Source of the DNA: an uncultured Zetaproteobacteria bacterium
Lineage (GTDB): Bacteria > Pseudomonadota > Zetaproteobacteria > Mariprofundales > Mariprofundaceae
Reading direction: 5' to 3'
Assembly (NCBI GenBank): GCA_947311495.1
Contig: CAMZLG010000079.1
Location: 1 to 42,230 of the forward strand
DNA length: 42,230 bases
The notes below the pieces were generated by a model that saw only the letters and a list, made by a program, of their open reading frames with translations, made no database searches and was not told the origin of the DNA. The position numbers and the translations under genes were made by a program. Shown here piece after piece: positions 26,283 through 42,230 of the stretch; within the stretch, counting starts at the first letter, position 1, and each line of letters starts with the position of its first letter.

Positions 26283-28592
26283 TTAGAATTCTGCTTCAAT
26301 GCCAAAGAAGGGTAAGAATAAATCATTGGAAACTTTGGTTGGATTGTTGAAGTTGGAAAAATCATCTTCATAATCGTACCCCGACACATTCTGACGGAAG
26401 GTGACATTTTGAACATCGAAGACGTATTTCATTTTCCATGTGTCGTACAAAACTTCCTTGCTTACCCGCACATCGAGCTTGGCATATAAAGGTAGGCGGT
26501 CGGCATTGTATTCCCCATACACTGGAAGCCAGCGACTTGTTCCTGCTTCCTGAACACGCCCAATAACTTTGGTGTAGGGTAAACCAGAGTGCGCTTGAAA
26601 TTTAAAGCCCCAATCCCAATCAGACCATGAGCCACCAAAGGGTTGACCCCAAACGGCAGTGAGCGTGTGCGGTTGGTCGCCTGCGAACTTTGTTGTTTTC
26701 CCTGTTTGTAAATTTTTGCGCGTTGATTTTGCCCATGAATAACTTAACCAACCCAGTTTGCGTCCTTCATATTTACGTTTGATAAATAAATCAAATCCAT
26801 AAGCTTCACCTTCACCTTTATTGGTATAGTTGGCTGGTGGTACGGGATTGTTGGTGCTGATGACTAAATCCGACATCGGTTTGTGATAAATTTCAGCTTT
26901 AACACTCCAAATATCATTGATTTTTTGCTCCACGCCTAAGATGCGATGTTCTGACCAAATGTATTGAAGTTGAGGATTACCAAAGCCGTCTAAGATTTCA
27001 AAACCTTGTGGCGATTGGAAATAATCACCCCAACTAAATAACCATGTGCGATCCTCGTTTTGTTGGTACTCAGCGGATAGGCGTGGTGATAAAGCATTGA
27101 GACTGGTTTGGGCTTTGCCTATACCATGGTCATACTTGCTGGATGTATGACGCACACCTACAGATGTTTTCCACTTATCATTCCATTGTTGGGTGTGTTT
27201 TATGTATGGCGTGTAAAGTGTTCCGTCAAAGGTGCCATCAACTTTGTGTTTGGTGAGAGAGGTGAAACCACCAGGTGTAGGTGCTTGATTGGATGGTTCA
27301 ACGGCAACATAAAATGATAAAGGCGCATTAAAATGTTGGTAATCTAGCCCTAATTTAATGGAGGTGTCCTTTTCTTCCCAAGTAACAGATGGGAATAAAA
27401 ATGTCGTTGTTGCTTTAAAGTTGCTATAAAAAGGGTCGCCGTAGGGGTCTGTACCAAAATTAACACGCGCAGATGTTTTTTCCACACCCGCCCGAACATG
27501 CTGACTCCACTGCTCATTCCATTGTTTTTTCCAATTGATACCATACGTTTCTGATTGCATATCAAAGTTCAAATCTCCTGCCAGCTGTGGGTCAGTAACG
27601 GTTGCATCTTTGAGTACGGCTCCCAGTTGGTCGCGAGCTTTGAAATATTGTACATCAATGTATCCGTCATTGGTTTCATGGCGATATAAACCTTGTATAT
27701 CGTAGAATTTAGGAACTTGGGTTATTGAATCTTTTGAATCACCTGCTGATAGCTTGGTTAAGGTCTCAGGGGAAAAAACAAGGTCGATATAACTGCGACG
27801 CGCAGCGAGATAAAAACTATCTTTGCCTGACTCACCAATAGGACCTTCAACTAGAAATGAAGACTCGTATGTGCCGATGTGCAGGTTGGTATGAATACGG
27901 TCTGTTTTGGGAGCGCGGAGCTTCACATCAATCACGCCACCCAAAGTATCGCCATACTCCACAGGGAAACCGCCCAGGAACACATTGAAGTCACTAACTA
28001 AGCTTGGGTTAATAACAGATTGAACACCACCCCAGTGATAGAGGTAGCCGAGTGGTAAGCCATCTACCCAATATTGATTATCCTCTGCAGCACTTCCGCG
28101 CATATACACTTGCCCACTACCGCTACCACTAGCAGCAACCACACCGGGCAGAGATTGAAGCACTTTGAGCGGGTCGCCTTGGCTACCTGGTGCATTGCGC
28201 AGCTCTTGGGCAGACAACACAATTTTTGATGTTTTTTCTTGCACACGTTCTTCAACCACTTCCAAGCCTTCAAGTTCGGCAAGGTTGGGTTTGAGATAAA
28301 TTTCAAGCGATGTTGGGTTGCCAGCGATGGTTTGTTCTAAAGTTTGATAGCCTTGATTGAGGATTTTCAAATCATCCAATGTGTTGGCATTGTTGGGTCG
28401 AATAAACTCGAATAAAGCTACGCCGTTGTCATCAGTGATGGTGTAACCATTGTTTTTAAGCACCACAGTTGCACCTTGCACAGGGTCACCAGAGCCTTTT
28501 TGCAGCACAGTAATGCTAAGCCCTTGCGCCAAGGTTGGTGTGCTCAACAAACAAAGACTTAATATAGATAAAGATAAAAATATTTTTTTCAT
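26283..28592 (-). CDS. TonB-dependent outer-membrane receptor with N-terminal carboxypeptidase-regulatory-like domain
   Basis: A 769-residue receptor with signal peptide MKKIFLSLSILSLCLLSTPTLAQ. A carboxypeptidase-D regulatory-like domain follows (about 24-110, GDPVQGATVVLKNNGYTITDDNGVALFEF). Next come the plug (about 120-220: GDPLKVLQSLPGVVAASGSGSGQVYMRGSAAEDNQYWVDG, GGFPVEYGDTLGGVIDVK) and a beta barrel ending in EAEF, with the terminal Phe used for barrel assembly. The substrate is unknown; no siderophore or cobalamin motif is decisive. The extra N-terminal domain is commoner in Bacteroidetes-type receptors and may contact other periplasmic partners. Position between a LytTR regulator and exbBD-tonB suggests regulated, dedicated uptake or signalling. 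Confidence 0.93.
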   Translation of the reverse strand: MKKIFLSLSILSLCLLSTPTLAQGLSITVLQKGSGDPVQGATVVLKNNGYTITDDNGVALFEFIRPNNANTLDDLKILNQGYQTLEQTIAGNPTSLEIYLKPNLAELEGLEVVEERVQEKTSKIVLSAQELRNAPGSQGDPLKVLQSLPGVVAASGSGSGQVYMRGSAAEDNQYWVDGLPLGYLYHWGGVQSVINPSLVSDFNVFLGGFPVEYGDTLGGVIDVKLRAPKTDRIHTNLHIGTYESSFLVEGPIGESGKDSFYLAARRSYIDLVFSPETLTKLSAGDSKDSITQVPKFYDIQGLYRHETNDGYIDVQYFKARDQLGAVLKDATVTDPQLAGDLNFDMQSETYGINWKKQWNEQWSQHVRAGVEKTSARVNFGTDPYGDPFYSNFKATTTFLFPSVTWEEKDTSIKLGLDYQHFNAPLSFYVAVEPSNQAPTPGGFTSLTKHKVDGTFDGTLYTPYIKHTQQWNDKWKTSVGVRHTSSKYDHGIGKAQTSLNALSPRLSAEYQQNEDRTWLFSWGDYFQSPQGFEILDGFGNPQLQYIWSEHRILGVEQKINDIWSVKAEIYHKPMSDLVISTNNPVPPANYTNKGEGEAYGFDLFIKRKYEGRKLGWLSYSWAKSTRKNLQTGKTTKFAGDQPHTLTAVWGQPFGGSWSDWDWGFKFQAHSGLPYTKVIGRVQEAGTSRWLPVYGEYNADRLPLYAKLDVRVSKEVLYDTWKMKYVFDVQNVTFRQNVSGYDYEDDFSNFNNPTKVSNDLFLPFFGIEAEF

Positions 28593-28599
28593 GGTTTCC

Positions 28600-29346
28600 T
28601 CACATTTGTTTGAATAAGTGTTTGTTGGCGCGGCTCACACTTAATTCATCAGGGATGTTTTTTAAAGTTAGCGTCAAAGCAGCATCTGATTCAGCGGCAT
28701 GGTTGACCCACGATACATTGACGATGGTATTGCGGTGAATGCGCCAAAATAATTCAGGGTCTAAACCTTCTTCCAATTCTTTGAGCGATTTGCGAATCAA
28801 ATAACTACCATCTTTGGTGCGCACAGTGGTATATTTATGTTCAAATTTAAAATATGCCACATCATCCACATGCAGCAAGCGAACATCGTCACCATCCAAA
28901 ATACGCAACCATTTTAAACTGGAAGCTTGTTTTTTTTCTGCCAACTGCTGCAAGACAGCTTGCAATGCTTGGGGCTGGGTATCATGTGCTTCTTTTAGGC
29001 GTTGAATGGTTTCTGTTAAACGCTCTTCGCTTACGGGTTTCAGAAGATAATCAACGGCATGGCAGCTAAATGCATCCACGGCGTATTGGTCAAAGGCTGT
29101 GACGAATACGACATGAGTTTTACCAATAACTTGTTTGGCAACATCCATGCCTGAAATGCTGGGCATACGAATGTCCAAAAACACAATATCAGGTTTATGA
29201 ATTTCAATGGCATCCAATGCTTGTTGCCCATTTTCCGCCAAAGCACATATTTCAAGCTCTGGCCAAAGCTTTTGCAAAAGCCGCTTTAAATGTTCGCGCA
29301 AGGGTGCTTCATCATCGGCAATAATGGCTTTAAGCAGGGAACTCAT
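28600..29346 (-). CDS. LytTR-family response regulator
   Basis: The 248-residue protein has a receiver domain (about 5-120) with the acidic pair ADDE, phospho-accepting Asp58 in IVFLDIRMPSISG, Thr in FVTAF and Lys in YLLKPV. The C-terminal LytTR DNA-binding domain (about 145-245) contains YFKFEHKYTTVRTKDGSYLIRKSLKELEE, FWRIHRNTIVN and the end VSRANKHLFKQM. LytTR regulators bind direct repeats upstream of their targets; the receptor gene starting eight bases downstream is the obvious candidate, though both are probably on one transcript. Its start overlaps the stop of its kinase by four bases. Confidence 0.95.
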   Translation of the reverse strand: MSSLLKAIIADDEAPLREHLKRLLQKLWPELEICALAENGQQALDAIEIHKPDIVFLDIRMPSISGMDVAKQVIGKTHVVFVTAFDQYAVDAFSCHAVDYLLKPVSEERLTETIQRLKEAHDTQPQALQAVLQQLAEKKQASSLKWLRILDGDDVRLLHVDDVAYFKFEHKYTTVRTKDGSYLIRKSLKELEEGLDPELFWRIHRNTIVNVSWVNHAAESDAALTLTLKNIPDELSVSRANKHLFKQM

Positions 29347-30398
29347 AATAGATTCACTGGAATTTGGATAGAAGCACGCACACCGCGTTTTCCAAGCTCT
29401 GAAATTTCAAAAATTGCAGCGCCACTGTATAGTGTGTTCAAGCGGTCGCGCACATTGGACAAACCAATGCCTTCACCTTTAAAATCAGCAAAACCAACGC
29501 CACTATCAATCACATCAAGGCAAAGCTTACCATTTTTGAGCATACCTGAGATTTGCAATGTGCCCCCGTTTATTTTGGGCTCTAACCCATGTTTAATGGC
29601 ATTTTCGACTAAAGGTTGCAATAGCATGGGCGGAAAGGGAAGCTTTAAAACAGTGTTGTCTATGATAATATCGAACTCAAAGCGAGTGCCCATTCGGGTT
29701 TTCATAATGCCAAGATAAGAGCGAAGCATATGAATTTCATGAGCCAATAAACAATCTTTACTTCGGCTATGGTCTAATGCTGTGCGTAGGTAGGTGTTCA
29801 CTTCTTCGAGCAAGGAAGATGCGCGCTTGGGTTCAGCTTCAATCAAACTGTGTACTGTGGCTAAGGTGTTGAATAAAAAATGAGGTTCAATTTGGGCTTG
29901 CAAGAGGTTGAGTTGTGCTTGGCTTAGTTGCTTTTCACTCATTTCACTGTGCAGTTGAAGCTCCAAACGTTCGGCATCAGCTTTGGCAACTTTGGCGCGA
30001 GAGTAAAAAACCCACATGATGATGCCACCAAAAAATAAACCCATGGGAAGCGATGCGGCAATAGACACATACAAAATGTCATCGGGTAAGTCTTGATCAG
30101 CGCCTGTTGCCCAAAATGCAAAACGAACACCGAGCAGAGTAGCTAATATTATACTGTTAAGAACAGCTAACCATTGAAACCAAGCATTATAGTTTTTAAG
30201 TAAATAAACGCTTATGCTGCCAAACAAATGGGCGAGAAAACCAATGCTAAAAGAAAAGACAAGGTTATAGATGAAAGGGTCTTCATCGCCTAACAGTGCA
30301 AACAGTATAGGTAAGGTAAGACAGAAAATAAGCGTATAGGACAACACACGCCAAGGGCTGACCGAAGAGGAAGTGAAAATATCCGAAGGTTTCAACAT
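29343..30398 (-). CDS. LytS-type sensor histidine kinase
   Basis: A 351-residue kinase with four to five membrane helices (about 17-135), a coiled-coil-like linker (RLELQLHSEMSEKQLSQAQLNLLQAQ, 144-169), and the His_kinase domain with IEPHFLFNTLATVHSLI (His173). The HATPase has LQPLVENAIKHGLEP, DSGVGF and GIGLSNVRDRL. This is the usual partner of LytTR regulators such as the adjacent one. The stimulus is unknown; there is no large periplasmic sensing domain, so sensing probably happens in the membrane part. It begins four bases after the stop of a small lipoprotein gene. Confidence 0.93.
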   Translation of the reverse strand: MLKPSDIFTSSSVSPWRVLSYTLIFCLTLPILFALLGDEDPFIYNLVFSFSIGFLAHLFGSISVYLLKNYNAWFQWLAVLNSIILATLLGVRFAFWATGADQDLPDDILYVSIAASLPMGLFFGGIIMWVFYSRAKVAKADAERLELQLHSEMSEKQLSQAQLNLLQAQIEPHFLFNTLATVHSLIEAEPKRASSLLEEVNTYLRTALDHSRSKDCLLAHEIHMLRSYLGIMKTRMGTRFEFDIIIDNTVLKLPFPPMLLQPLVENAIKHGLEPKINGGTLQISGMLKNGKLCLDVIDSGVGFADFKGEGIGLSNVRDRLNTLYSGAAIFEISELGKRGVRASIQIPVNLL

Positions 30399-39793: not shown

Positions 39794-40909
39794 CTATGTG
39801 CGGATTAGATATATTGTTTCTTTGGTGAATGCCCACAAGGCACGCCCTACCTGTTTGAGGCGGGTGCGAATAAAGTTACATTTGACGCAACCACCACCAG
39901 CAACTTGAGCTCGAATTTCTTCGCGGGGATAAATGGTTTCACACCAAAATTCAATGCGATGTGACAAGCTTGGTAACATGCGAGAAAATAAACGTTCTGC
40001 CAAATAAGGGATAACCGCATGGTTCATGAACCGTTTGAATAAACGCTTTTCGATAATGCCCATTTTCGGCTTTATGTGTTGCAAAAATTCATCAGTAACA
40101 GGTGCGTCCATATGTTCTTTGGCATAAGATAATGCATAAAAACAAGGGCGTTCAAGCTTGTATTCATGAATACCCTGTAAAACACCTTCCCATAAGCCTT
40201 GTTTTTCCACCTGTTTGGCTAACAAAGCAATATCATACAACCAAATTAGACGTTCAAAAGAGTGCTTGAGTGCGTGAAAACACAAATAAGGCAACATAAC
40301 GCGAGGGTGAACCAGCAGTGCTTTCTCGCCAGCAAGTTTGCCTTCTTTGGCATATTTAAAGAAATCGTCAACATTGAGAGGCGTGATATGTTTCCAAGCT
40401 TGAATCCGCTCTGAACCAATGGGTTCAATGTGTAAATCCAAGGGGATATCACCAAGTTTGAACAGCATAGGGTAGGCATTAATGGGGCGAAAGTGTAAGT
40501 TATTGCCAGCAACCTGTTTTGCCATCATCAAATGCTTCTTATCGAATAAAATATCAATGTCAGTATGGGGGCGCAAGTAAGATTGAGGATATAAAGTTTC
40601 ACTGACCGCGACACCACGCATACAAATAGTGGGAATATTTGCCTCATTGTAAGCGCGAAGAACGCGGCTAGTTGTATTTTTAAGACGTAATGCTTCAGCT
40701 GCAAATATATGTTCATCCATGGGATTTAAGAGCCATGGTTTGACGGTTTCTTTTTGAGCTGTGCTCAAAGATGCCCACAGCACAGGGAACATGGCATCAG
40801 CCTGGGCAAGTGTCCAAAAGTCCGTGTTGGTGAGGGTATGTTCGGGAATATCACCTGCTAAAAGTGCACATGCTGACTCACGATAAGACCAAAAAGAAAG
40901 TGGCTTCAT
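39794..40909 (-). CDS. Nucleotidyltransferase-fold protein (PF14907-like)
   Basis: A 371-residue protein. The N-terminal half has the nucleotidyltransferase core CMRGVAVSETLYPQSYLRPHTDIDILFDKKHL (about 97-126) with the DxD pair Asp117/Asp119. A helical C-terminal region follows, including PYLCFHALKHSFERLIWLYDIALLAKQ. This matches the uncharacterised nucleotidyltransferase family seen near peptide-maturation, lasso-peptide and PqqD/HprK-like gene sets, where its reaction is unknown. The C-terminus has two close cysteines (GGGCVKCNF). It is divergent from the two cysteine-rich genes with 121 bases between starts, so shared regulation with that locus is likely. Confidence 0.8.
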   Translation of the reverse strand: MKPLSFWSYRESACALLAGDIPEHTLTNTDFWTLAQADAMFPVLWASLSTAQKETVKPWLLNPMDEHIFAAEALRLKNTTSRVLRAYNEANIPTICMRGVAVSETLYPQSYLRPHTDIDILFDKKHLMMAKQVAGNNLHFRPINAYPMLFKLGDIPLDLHIEPIGSERIQAWKHITPLNVDDFFKYAKEGKLAGEKALLVHPRVMLPYLCFHALKHSFERLIWLYDIALLAKQVEKQGLWEGVLQGIHEYKLERPCFYALSYAKEHMDAPVTDEFLQHIKPKMGIIEKRLFKRFMNHAVIPYLAERLFSRMLPSLSHRIEFWCETIYPREEIRAQVAGGGCVKCNFIRTRLKQVGRALWAFTKETIYLIRT

Positions 40910-41030
40910 ATCACAACCATACGCAGTATATTTGATAAAATCCAGAGAGTTATGCTATGCTTGCATTTATGGTACAGTTTACAAATTGTGTTTTTTATAA
41001 ATATTTATTGCTCTTGAGGAAAATCTTATC
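40910..41030. promoter_or_regulatory. Divergent promoter region of the cysteine-rich peptide locus
   Basis: 121 AT-rich bases between two divergent starts, the only place where promoters for both sides can lie. Several TATA-like hexamers occur (for example TATAAA near 40996), but no confident -35/-10 pair was identified. The TTGAGGA at 41014-41020 is the likely ribosome binding site for the TTG start at 41031. Confidence 0.35.
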
Positions 41031-41432
41031 TTGAAACAAACAGATAATGTTCGGCGAAAGCTCATTCAAGCTTCTGTGTATATGCCTCCAGTCATACTTG
41101 GCTCAATGGTTGCTACACCTCGTACAGTTATGGGTGCGATTGGTGCAACCAAGGTTTGTAACTTAACAGGTGGTGGTTCTGTTACGATAATCATTTCATC
41201 AGGTACCAATGCCTGTTGTCCGTGTATTCTAGGTGCAGTGAAATACAATGCTAAGAAGTGTGCGAAACAACGTTGTAAATTATCTTGTGGAACGAACTGC
41301 CCACCGGGCGTTATTGCAAAAATAAGATGCAAACAGTTTTGTAAGCTTTGTGGGTTCACACCTGCTGGGTGCAAAAAACCGTGTACGTGTATCCCACACC
41401 CAACAAAACCGGGCAAGTTCAAATGTATTTAG
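41031..41432 (+). CDS. Cysteine-rich protein with twin-arginine-type leader, copy 1
   Basis: A 133-residue protein starting with TTG; no in-frame ATG precedes the leader, and AGGA lies ten bases upstream. Residues 8-35 form the leader: Arg8-Arg9-Lys10, a moderately hydrophobic stretch, then PPVILGSMVATPRTVMG at 19-35. The remainder (about 98 residues) has 15 cysteines, at 43, 62, 63, 65, 77, 82, 86, 90, 100, 104, 107, 114, 118, 120 and 132, with many lysines. No known family was recognised. The leader resembles a Tat signal or a peptide-modification leader. With its neighbour and the radical SAM gene it looks like the substrate of a maturation system; a secreted metal-binding or disulfide-rich protein is the alternative. 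Confidence 0.82.
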   Translation: MKQTDNVRRKLIQASVYMPPVILGSMVATPRTVMGAIGATKVCNLTGGGSVTIIISSGTNACCPCILGAVKYNAKKCAKQRCKLSCGTNCPPGVIAKIRCKQFCKLCGFTPAGCKKPCTCIPHPTKPGKFKCI

Positions 41433-41447
41433 ATGAAGGAGTTTGAT

Positions 41448-41864
41448 ATGGATAAGCAAACAAGTTTGGCAAGAAGGAAACTTTTGAAGGTAGCTGTCTA
41501 CGCTCCCCCAGTCATCCTTGGTTCAATGGTCGCAACACCACGTACGGTGATGGGAATTGGCCCATGGATTCCACCGACTGACCCTATCGGCACAACATTA
41601 AATTGTACGCTCTGGGCAGGTGGGTCAGTGACGATTACGGTTTCTTCGGGTACGAATGCGTGTTGCCCATGTGTGCCAGGGTCAACTGGATTTAATACAA
41701 CAGTGTGCAACCAAAAGCGCTGCGAATTATCCTGTGGTACCAATTGTGCACCAGGCGTTTTAGCGACTGTTCGTTGTAAAGATTTCTGTAGAACGTGTGG
41801 GTTTACAGTAGCAGGTTGTAAGACTCCTTGTACGTGTAATGCGGGAACAGGAGCTTGTCCGTAA
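41448..41864 (+). CDS. Cysteine-rich protein with twin-arginine-type leader, copy 2
   Basis: A 138-residue paralogue of the preceding gene. The ATG at 41448 has AAGGAG six bases upstream and is preferred over the in-frame ATG at 41433. Residues 20-36 are identical to leader residues 19-35 of copy 1, and all nine base differences over those 17 codons are silent. It has 15 cysteines, at 53, 72, 73, 75, 87, 92, 96, 100, 110, 114, 117, 124, 128, 130 and 137; the first 14 have exactly the same spacing as in copy 1. It differs by a Pro-rich insert after the leader (IGPWIPPTDPIG) and fewer lysines. The function is unknown, presumably the same class of substrate. Confidence 0.85.
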   Translation: MDKQTSLARRKLLKVAVYAPPVILGSMVATPRTVMGIGPWIPPTDPIGTTLNCTLWAGGSVTITVSSGTNACCPCVPGSTGFNTTVCNQKRCELSCGTNCAPGVLATVRCKDFCRTCGFTVAGCKTPCTCNAGTGACP

Positions 41865-41884
41865 TTGTTGGTGCTCCTTCGCTA

Positions 41885-42230
41885 ATGCCACAACCACATT
41901 ATATTTTTCTTGAAGACGGGCGTTTTTTACTCGCCGTAACACATGGTTCTGATGATGAAGTCATTGTAATACATCCATTAGATACAGGTAAGCGGTTAAC
42001 ATTAAATGGTCAGTTTGCAGCAGCACTTAAACAGCAACTTCAAAATCTTCCCAGAAAAACAACATGTTTTAACCTTATCGAGAAACAACATCCTTGGTTA
42101 AAAGGTTTGTCAACGGCGCAGTTGTCACCTCATCGGACGGAGAAAATGGTCATTGGTGATGAATTGGGGTTGTTATTTTTAGAAATAACAGACCAATGTA
42201 ACGAGCAATGTATCCATTGTTATGCTTCAT
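41885..42230 (+). CDS. Radical SAM protein, partial (cut by right edge)
   Basis: The frame from the ATG at 41885 stays open for 115 codons to the window end. About 100 residues of N-terminal domain (MPQPHYIFLEDGRFLLAV...) come first. The segment LGLLFLEITDQCNEQCIHCYAS then shows the CxxxCxxC cluster motif (Cys105, Cys109, Cys112) preceded by the usual hydrophobic strand, as in SPASM-type peptide maturases. No good Shine-Dalgarno sequence precedes the ATG, and in-frame TTG or GTA codons further left are possible alternatives. The gene starts 20 bases after the second cysteine-rich gene, so it is very probably in the same operon and a candidate enzyme acting on those proteins. The rest lies outside the window. 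Confidence 0.88.
   Translation, partial: MPQPHYIFLEDGRFLLAVTHGSDDEVIVIHPLDTGKRLTLNGQFAAALKQQLQNLPRKTTCFNLIEKQHPWLKGLSTAQLSPHRTEKMVIGDELGLLFLEITDQCNEQCIHCYAS

Follow-up and report, generated by a model that had tools for sequence, protein, structure and literature searches.

A putative peptide-maturation cassette with cysteine-rich precursors and a radical SAM enzyme in Zetaproteobacteria

The contig CAMZLG010000079.1 of an uncultured Zetaproteobacteria bacterium (assembly GCA_947311495.1, 1.85 Mb in 162 contigs) was analysed over its whole length of 42,230 nucleotides, hereafter the window (G000:C79), and it ends in a group of genes that probably forms a maturation cassette for ribosomally synthesized and post-translationally modified peptides (RiPPs). 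Two tandem cysteine-rich paralogues, A1 and A2, are very likely the substrates of the enzymes encoded around them. A preliminary description of this DNA had already suggested that the locus matures peptides and that the paralogues are its substrates, and this proposal is now supported by comparative genomics, by the completed operon and by co-occurrence across genomes; its suggestion of an undescribed class is plausible.

Operon completion and distribution

The window ends with the contig, inside a gene for a radical S-adenosylmethionine (SAM) enzyme. Its last 114 bases (42117-42230) recur unchanged at the end of contig C11 of the same genome, and joining the two contigs gives an unbroken radical SAM/SPASM reading frame of 401-411 amino acids. 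We accepted the join because congeneric genomes keep the same order uninterrupted: in the Ghiorsea (Zetaproteobacteria) relatives it reads pntB, a small gene, a cytochrome c gene, PF14907, precursor(s), radical SAM, PqqD, HprK, optionally an ATP-grasp gene, and nth (L031, L032, L036-L041 and L044; some of these contigs end early on one side). The joined operon consists of precursors A1 and A2, the radical SAM/SPASM enzyme, a PqqD-like protein and an HprK-fold kinase, and a divergent PF14907 nucleotidyltransferase gene brings the cassette to six genes in all. Beyond these six, the joined contig and the relatives have only nth or an ATP-grasp gene. The preliminary description had pointed to the sequence right of 42230 as the place to look for a SPASM domain, a PqqD-like chaperone and an HprK-like kinase, and all three were found on C11, within the next 2 kb. 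Other contig ends of the assembly may be joinable by overlaps of the same kind.

By profile search, 37 of 78 Zetaproteobacteria genomes have an orthologue of the radical SAM protein; among them are 15 of the 16 sampled Ghiorsea, and none is from the well-sampled related genus g9. The precursor profile, which covers all core types, returned exactly the same 37 genomes; neither gene was seen without the other, and neither of the two arrangements that the preliminary description had named as refuting its proposal was observed. The HprK kinase is present in 38 genomes, the additional case being a partial gene (a C-terminal fragment) in a 68%-complete genome, on a contig shared with an ATP-grasp gene. 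In every intact cassette both PF14907 and the radical SAM gene lie next to a precursor.

Outside the class, the radical SAM profile gave one weak match among about 320 other Pseudomonadota (G098, 2e-44) and no further match in 369 genomes of the class to which G098 belongs. This candidate was rejected as a relative of the cassette, as it has a second, different radical SAM gene alongside and no cassette. When 84,980 genomes of bacteria and archaea were scanned for G[TG]NACCPC, which represents one core pattern and would let other core types escape, 16 loci were confirmed, all in Zetaproteobacteria. The cassette is so far known only from this class. Within Ghiorsea, one genome (G001; L049, L111) has a far more divergent cassette (radical SAM match 1e-124 versus about 1e-205 in its sisters), which suggests replacement by transfer.

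Two variations on the common layout were observed. Of the 78 genomes, 23 encode an ATP-grasp protein of 382-399 amino acids, convergently with HprK, and 22 of these have the radical SAM gene (ATP-grasp gene beside HprK at L037:2600-3751, L038:8880-10028, L039:2585-3733, L040:9056-10204, L044:2428-3591 and L046:8752-9951). No such gene was detected in cassette-free genomes apart from the one with the kinase fragment, the genome of the window is without it, and it is probably an optional extra tailoring enzyme. In the genome G006 (L034, L035) the cassette is split over two sites 22 kb apart, one with PF14907, an A2-type precursor and a second PqqD copy, the other with an A1-type precursor, radical SAM, PqqD and HprK; the latter site adjoins IS30-like and ISL3-like transposases (named by eye) where PF14907 would be expected. 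This split fits a requirement for PF14907 in trans and for each precursor to have its own recognition protein.

Precursors, enzymes and flanking features

A1 (41031-41432, forward strand) and A2 (41448-41864, forward strand) encode proteins of 133 and 138 amino acids that are 65% identical, have a common leader and contain 15 cysteines each, with 98 and 102 residues following the leader, as the preliminary description had it. A1 appears to start with TTG, preceded by GAGGAA, and the start of A2 is most likely the ATG at 41448, with the ribosome-binding sequence AAGGAG upstream (41436-41441), rather than position 41433. Both have an orthologue in L031. Their leaders, RRKLI...YMPPVILG...TVMG in A1 (41031-41135) and RRKLLK...YAPPVILG...TVMG in A2 (41448-41555), are followed by a CCPC motif (41214-41225 and 41661-41672, respectively), which is the predicted modification site.

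We gathered 41 precursors by a regular expression whose sole demands were R[RK]x[LFIM][LIVM] and, after a loose spacer, YxPP. Their leaders are near-invariant (RRxLL-x4-YxPPxxxG); PP is present in all 41, and beyond what the expression demands, all 41 have the second R, L at +3, Y at exactly +9 and G at +16. The cores vary, with 4 to 17 cysteines, and fall into four kinds: those with 15 cysteines (Ghiorsea and some others), those with mostly 13, short GSCxPSACQPC cores with charged tails, and SCAPCFCAPCGRSGEKN. CxPC is the one feature that every core shares: all 41 contain it, versus 5.1 of 41 expected after shuffling of the cores. Small genes with a conserved leader and a variable core beside modifying enzymes, the hallmark of RiPPs, are thus what is found here. 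Purifying selection acts on the Ghiorsea precursors (omega of 0.04-0.08 in comparison with their nearest relatives, with dS near saturation; against L031, 0.071 for A1 and 0.040 for A2), and because of these values and of a gene order that recurs in more than 30 genomes, we consider the locus to be more than a chance arrangement. The precursors had no credible match in Pfam or NCBIfam, even at E 10, and a PDB sequence search gave none either. A serine six residues before CC is invariant in the cysteine-rich core types and is a candidate phosphate acceptor. Some precursors with few cysteines have long Ser/Asp/Gly or Lys-rich tails (L103:6477-7043, L050:4105-4446), which are plausible targets of multi-site phosphorylation.

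The leader seems to combine two functions. Its YxPPx[I/V/L/M] (M in 2 of 41) matches the motif [Y/W]xxPx[L/V/I/A/F/Y] of RiPP recognition element (RRE) binding, which is bound by stand-alone recognition proteins of the lasso and pyrroloquinoline quinone (PQQ) pathways (PMC13381572). It also resembles a signal of the twin-arginine translocation (Tat) type, with RR in all 41 followed by 17-26 uncharged residues and, in many genera, a signal-peptidase-like site after the leader (AFA, AHA, ANA, AEA, AQA or AWA); such AxA-type sites can be seen in the majority of the precursors from outside Ghiorsea, and TatC is encoded in the genome. The leader may therefore double as RRE-binding site and Tat export signal, and export of the product by Tat is somewhat favoured by these features. 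An MFS_1_like transporter gene recurs near the cassette outside Ghiorsea (L046:9948-11114 and 12 other loci), and could be a candidate exporter or mere synteny.

The radical SAM gene begins 20 bases (41865-41884) after the A2 stop, and its first 115 codons (41885-42230, forward strand) include the cluster motif CxxxCxxC as CNEQCIHC (42197-42220); both the gap and the motif had been placed correctly in the preliminary description. The remainder lies on C11 (L003:9055-10026, minus strand), ending 860 bases past the window. The joined protein matches PF04055 (1.4e-23) and PF13186 (1e-4), both above cut-off, and carries CxxxCxxC, which is present in every aligned homologue, GX4C and CX5CX2C, a spacing thought to be used by the auxiliary cluster of ThnB. 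By profile, its closest solved structure is the sactipeptide maturase SkfB (4.8e-16). The sactipeptide maturase models remain below cut-off (StsB 73/625 bits, AlbA 64.7/850), and profile comparison found no fused RRE in the N-terminus. The PqqD-like protein (99 amino acids; L003:8756-9055, minus strand; PF05402, 6.9e-12), whose start overlaps the radical SAM stop (TGATG), has lasso and PQQ recognition proteins as its best solved relatives, namely TbiB1 and PqqC/D, then TfuB1.

The kinase (291 amino acids; L003:7874-8749, minus strand) is TIGR04352-like, its AlphaFold model (pLDDT 90) matches the fold of PEPCK and HPr kinase/phosphatase, its P-loop is intact, and P-loop, His and Asp-Glu are conserved. 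The divergent gene for a predicted tailoring enzyme (371 amino acids; 39794-40909, minus strand), which had been described as PF14907-type with DxDIL, indeed matches PF14907 (NTP_transf_5) well above the curated cut-off (1e-32; 114 bits versus 31), with the match spanning residues 30-267 only. Its DxD catalytic motif (D117, D119 in HTDIDIL; 40553-40561, minus strand) does not vary among 14 homologues with identities of at least 42%. Outside the Pfam match, all 14 aligned cassette proteins share an invariant C-terminal GCVKCxFIR (39866-39892, minus strand), possibly as a metal site or a contact surface. A PDB sequence search gave no match for either the kinase or the PF14907 protein.

Among the flanking features, the housekeeping gene nth (L003:7245-7877, forward strand) follows the kinase convergently. 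A promoter-like TTGATA-N18-TATGCT lies 5' of the precursors (40932-40961, forward strand); the region contains 5 matches to the consensus, this one included, versus a mean of 3.1 in shuffles, and a site with the same 18-base spacer was recovered in 9 of 13 Ghiorsea intergenic regions. No metal-regulator box was recognised in the intergenic alignment upstream of the precursors, and an Rfam search of the window gave no matches. Further away, genes for a TonB-dependent receptor, a 248-amino-acid protein and a LytS-type histidine kinase follow each other on the minus strand (26283-30398), possibly as a signalling unit.

Proposed maturation and competing explanations

We propose the following order of events. 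First, two precursors that share a leader are produced, as is apparent from their conserved coding sequence. The stand-alone PqqD-like protein would bind the leader at Y-x-P-P-x-I-L, which matches the lasso/PQQ motif, and present the core to the radical SAM/SPASM enzyme. This enzyme would then carry out a radical modification at cysteines around CxPC, most likely thioether cross-linking, as its similarity to SkfB suggests; as an assignment of chemistry, we hold this about evenly balanced. The HprK-fold kinase may phosphorylate a Ser or Thr of the core, and the resulting phosphate may receive a nucleotidyl or sugar moiety from the PF14907 protein, by analogy with the pathways for paeninodin, pseudomycoidin and LPP. 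The kinase of the pseudomycoidin pathway acts on a serine, and a nucleotidyltransferase-like protein is required for the hexoses on the phosphate added there (PMC9266682), and in LPP the kinase polyphosphorylates Ser3 (PMC13381572); on these grounds, phosphorylation by the kinase has a modest balance in its favour. The folded product would leave via Tat and lose its leader to signal peptidase, and such export and cleavage would explain a cassette without protease or transporter.

The product would be a cysteine-rich peptide, conserved and located outside the cytoplasm. The strong purifying selection on its precursors and their occurrence in nearly all sampled members of the genus hint at metal or redox handling at the cell surface rather than a toxin, and the strict conservation in Ghiorsea suggests a physiological role there rather than warfare. 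Taken together as a separate RiPP class, with Tat-exported precursors, a signal peptide serving as RRE-binding leader, radical SAM action at CxPC, phosphate decoration by the HprK-type kinase and then the PF14907 transferase, and a cell-surface role in iron-oxidising bacteria, the proposal is tentative, and we rate it somewhat below an even chance.

Several points weigh against this scheme. In Ghiorsea the leader ends in VMG, which is weaker than AxA as a signal-peptidase site, and RR is often preceded by V or I, which is unusual for Tat. For the precursor, AlphaFold gave an uninformative model (pLDDT 59). No residue besides CxPC is common to all cores, and hence the phosphorylation site cannot be named. 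Full SPASM domains have an upstream CX2C and a final cysteine that the motif here lacks, and the chemistry could therefore be different. In the LPP study, deletion of the PF14907 homologue gave no detectable change (PMC13381572). The co-occurrence has a Fisher's test value of 4e-23, which is descriptive, since the genomes are related and the counts are not phylogenetically independent.

Three other explanations were considered. The cysteine-rich proteins could be ordinary unmodified exported proteins, metal-binding or disulfide-rich, with the enzymes acting on another substrate. Their dense cysteines would suit metal binding, the leader resembles a normal Tat signal with signal-peptidase sites, and some cores are of low complexity with only 4-6 cysteines. 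A signal peptide alone, however, needs no invariant YxPP at fixed spacing over divergent cores; the leader contains the RRE motif with a stand-alone RRE protein encoded alongside, and the precursor and radical SAM genes share the same genomes and are adjacent in every intact cassette. We regard this explanation as quite unlikely.

A classical sactipeptide or ranthipeptide bacteriocin cluster, producing thioether-bridged antimicrobials against competitors, would account for the SkfB-like radical SAM profile, the cysteine-rich cores and the two precursor genes in some genomes. The cassette nevertheless has no gene for a transporter, a protease or immunity, its enzyme stays below the cut-off of every sactipeptide maturase model, and strong purifying selection at one conserved locus in 15 of 16 Ghiorsea is unlike an arms-race trait; because the precursors are under purifying selection, the bacteriocin explanation was downgraded and now appears unlikely. 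The combination of a PqqD-like protein with a radical SAM/SPASM enzyme is also the layout of the PQQ and mycofactocin pathways, where the precursor would be sacrificed as a scaffold and cleaved to give a small redox cofactor, here at CxPC, the only universal core motif. Such a role seems very improbable, as the cassette has no PqqB/F/G- or MftE-like peptidase, the cores are long and, within the genus, strongly conserved, the kinase and PF14907 are tailoring enzymes of lasso/LPP type, and the leader ends in an export signal.

Relation to known systems

The cassette shares parts with LPP, lasso, sactipeptide and bufferin systems and lacks a tested defining feature of each. The LPP systems, published as restricted to Bacillota (PMC13381572), likewise have a stand-alone RRE, an HprK-like kinase, a PF14907-type NTP transferase and 1-3 precursors with a YxxPx[V/L] leader motif, conserved leader and variable C-terminus. 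Their clusters differ by a SipW-like peptidase and an MsbA-like exporter, both absent from this cassette, and by having no radical SAM enzyme; their cores are not described as cysteine-rich, and of the full LPP leader motif YxxPxVLxHQxIxFETxxS only the YxxPx[I/V]L part is found here. Phosphorylated or glycosylated lasso peptides of the paeninodin type (PadeK, PsmK/PsmN; PMC9266682) share the RRE (B1), the HprK-like kinase, the PsmN-type nucleotidyltransferase and the [Y/W]xxPx[L/I] leader. The cassette has radical SAM/SPASM instead, with cores much longer than lasso cores, and a search confined to the cassette revealed neither the macrolactam synthetase (C) nor the B2 leader protease.

The sactipeptide maturases SkfB, ThnB and CteB also combine radical SAM with a C-terminal auxiliary-cluster motif (CX5CX2C as in ThnB), whereas the enzyme described here is far under the NCBIfam cut-offs and is accompanied by a separate recognition protein, an added kinase and PF14907, and a Tat-like leader. 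Bufferins and other signal-peptide RiPPs (PMC12636315, PMC12538549) resemble it in their large cysteine-rich precursors, N-terminal export signal and lack of a dedicated exporter, but those described there use MNIO (DUF692), and no gene for MNIO or its partner enzyme is present in the cassette, which has radical SAM, RRE, kinase and PF14907 instead. PqqD-family proteins with an HprK-related kinase or radical SAM/SPASM also occur in HPr-rel-A (TIGR04352/04353), GeoRSP (TIGR04302/04303) and SynChlorMet (TIGR04248/04251); all cassette matches to these models are far under the curated cut-offs, with 51.9/200 bits for TIGR04352 and 17.2/35 bits for TIGR04353. Literature searches for this combination of enzymes found no description in the papers available.

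If correct, our interpretation would join radical SAM chemistry, lasso/LPP-type recognition with kinase and nucleotidyltransferase tailoring, and a signal peptide used as leader, three RiPP logics of which we found no earlier report together. The 41 precursors, with four core types around one motif, would form a substrate set for learning the function of PF14907, which the LPP and pseudomycoidin studies left open. The hosts are deep-sea and vent iron-oxidising bacteria, in which the cassette looks built to modify and export small cysteine-rich proteins.

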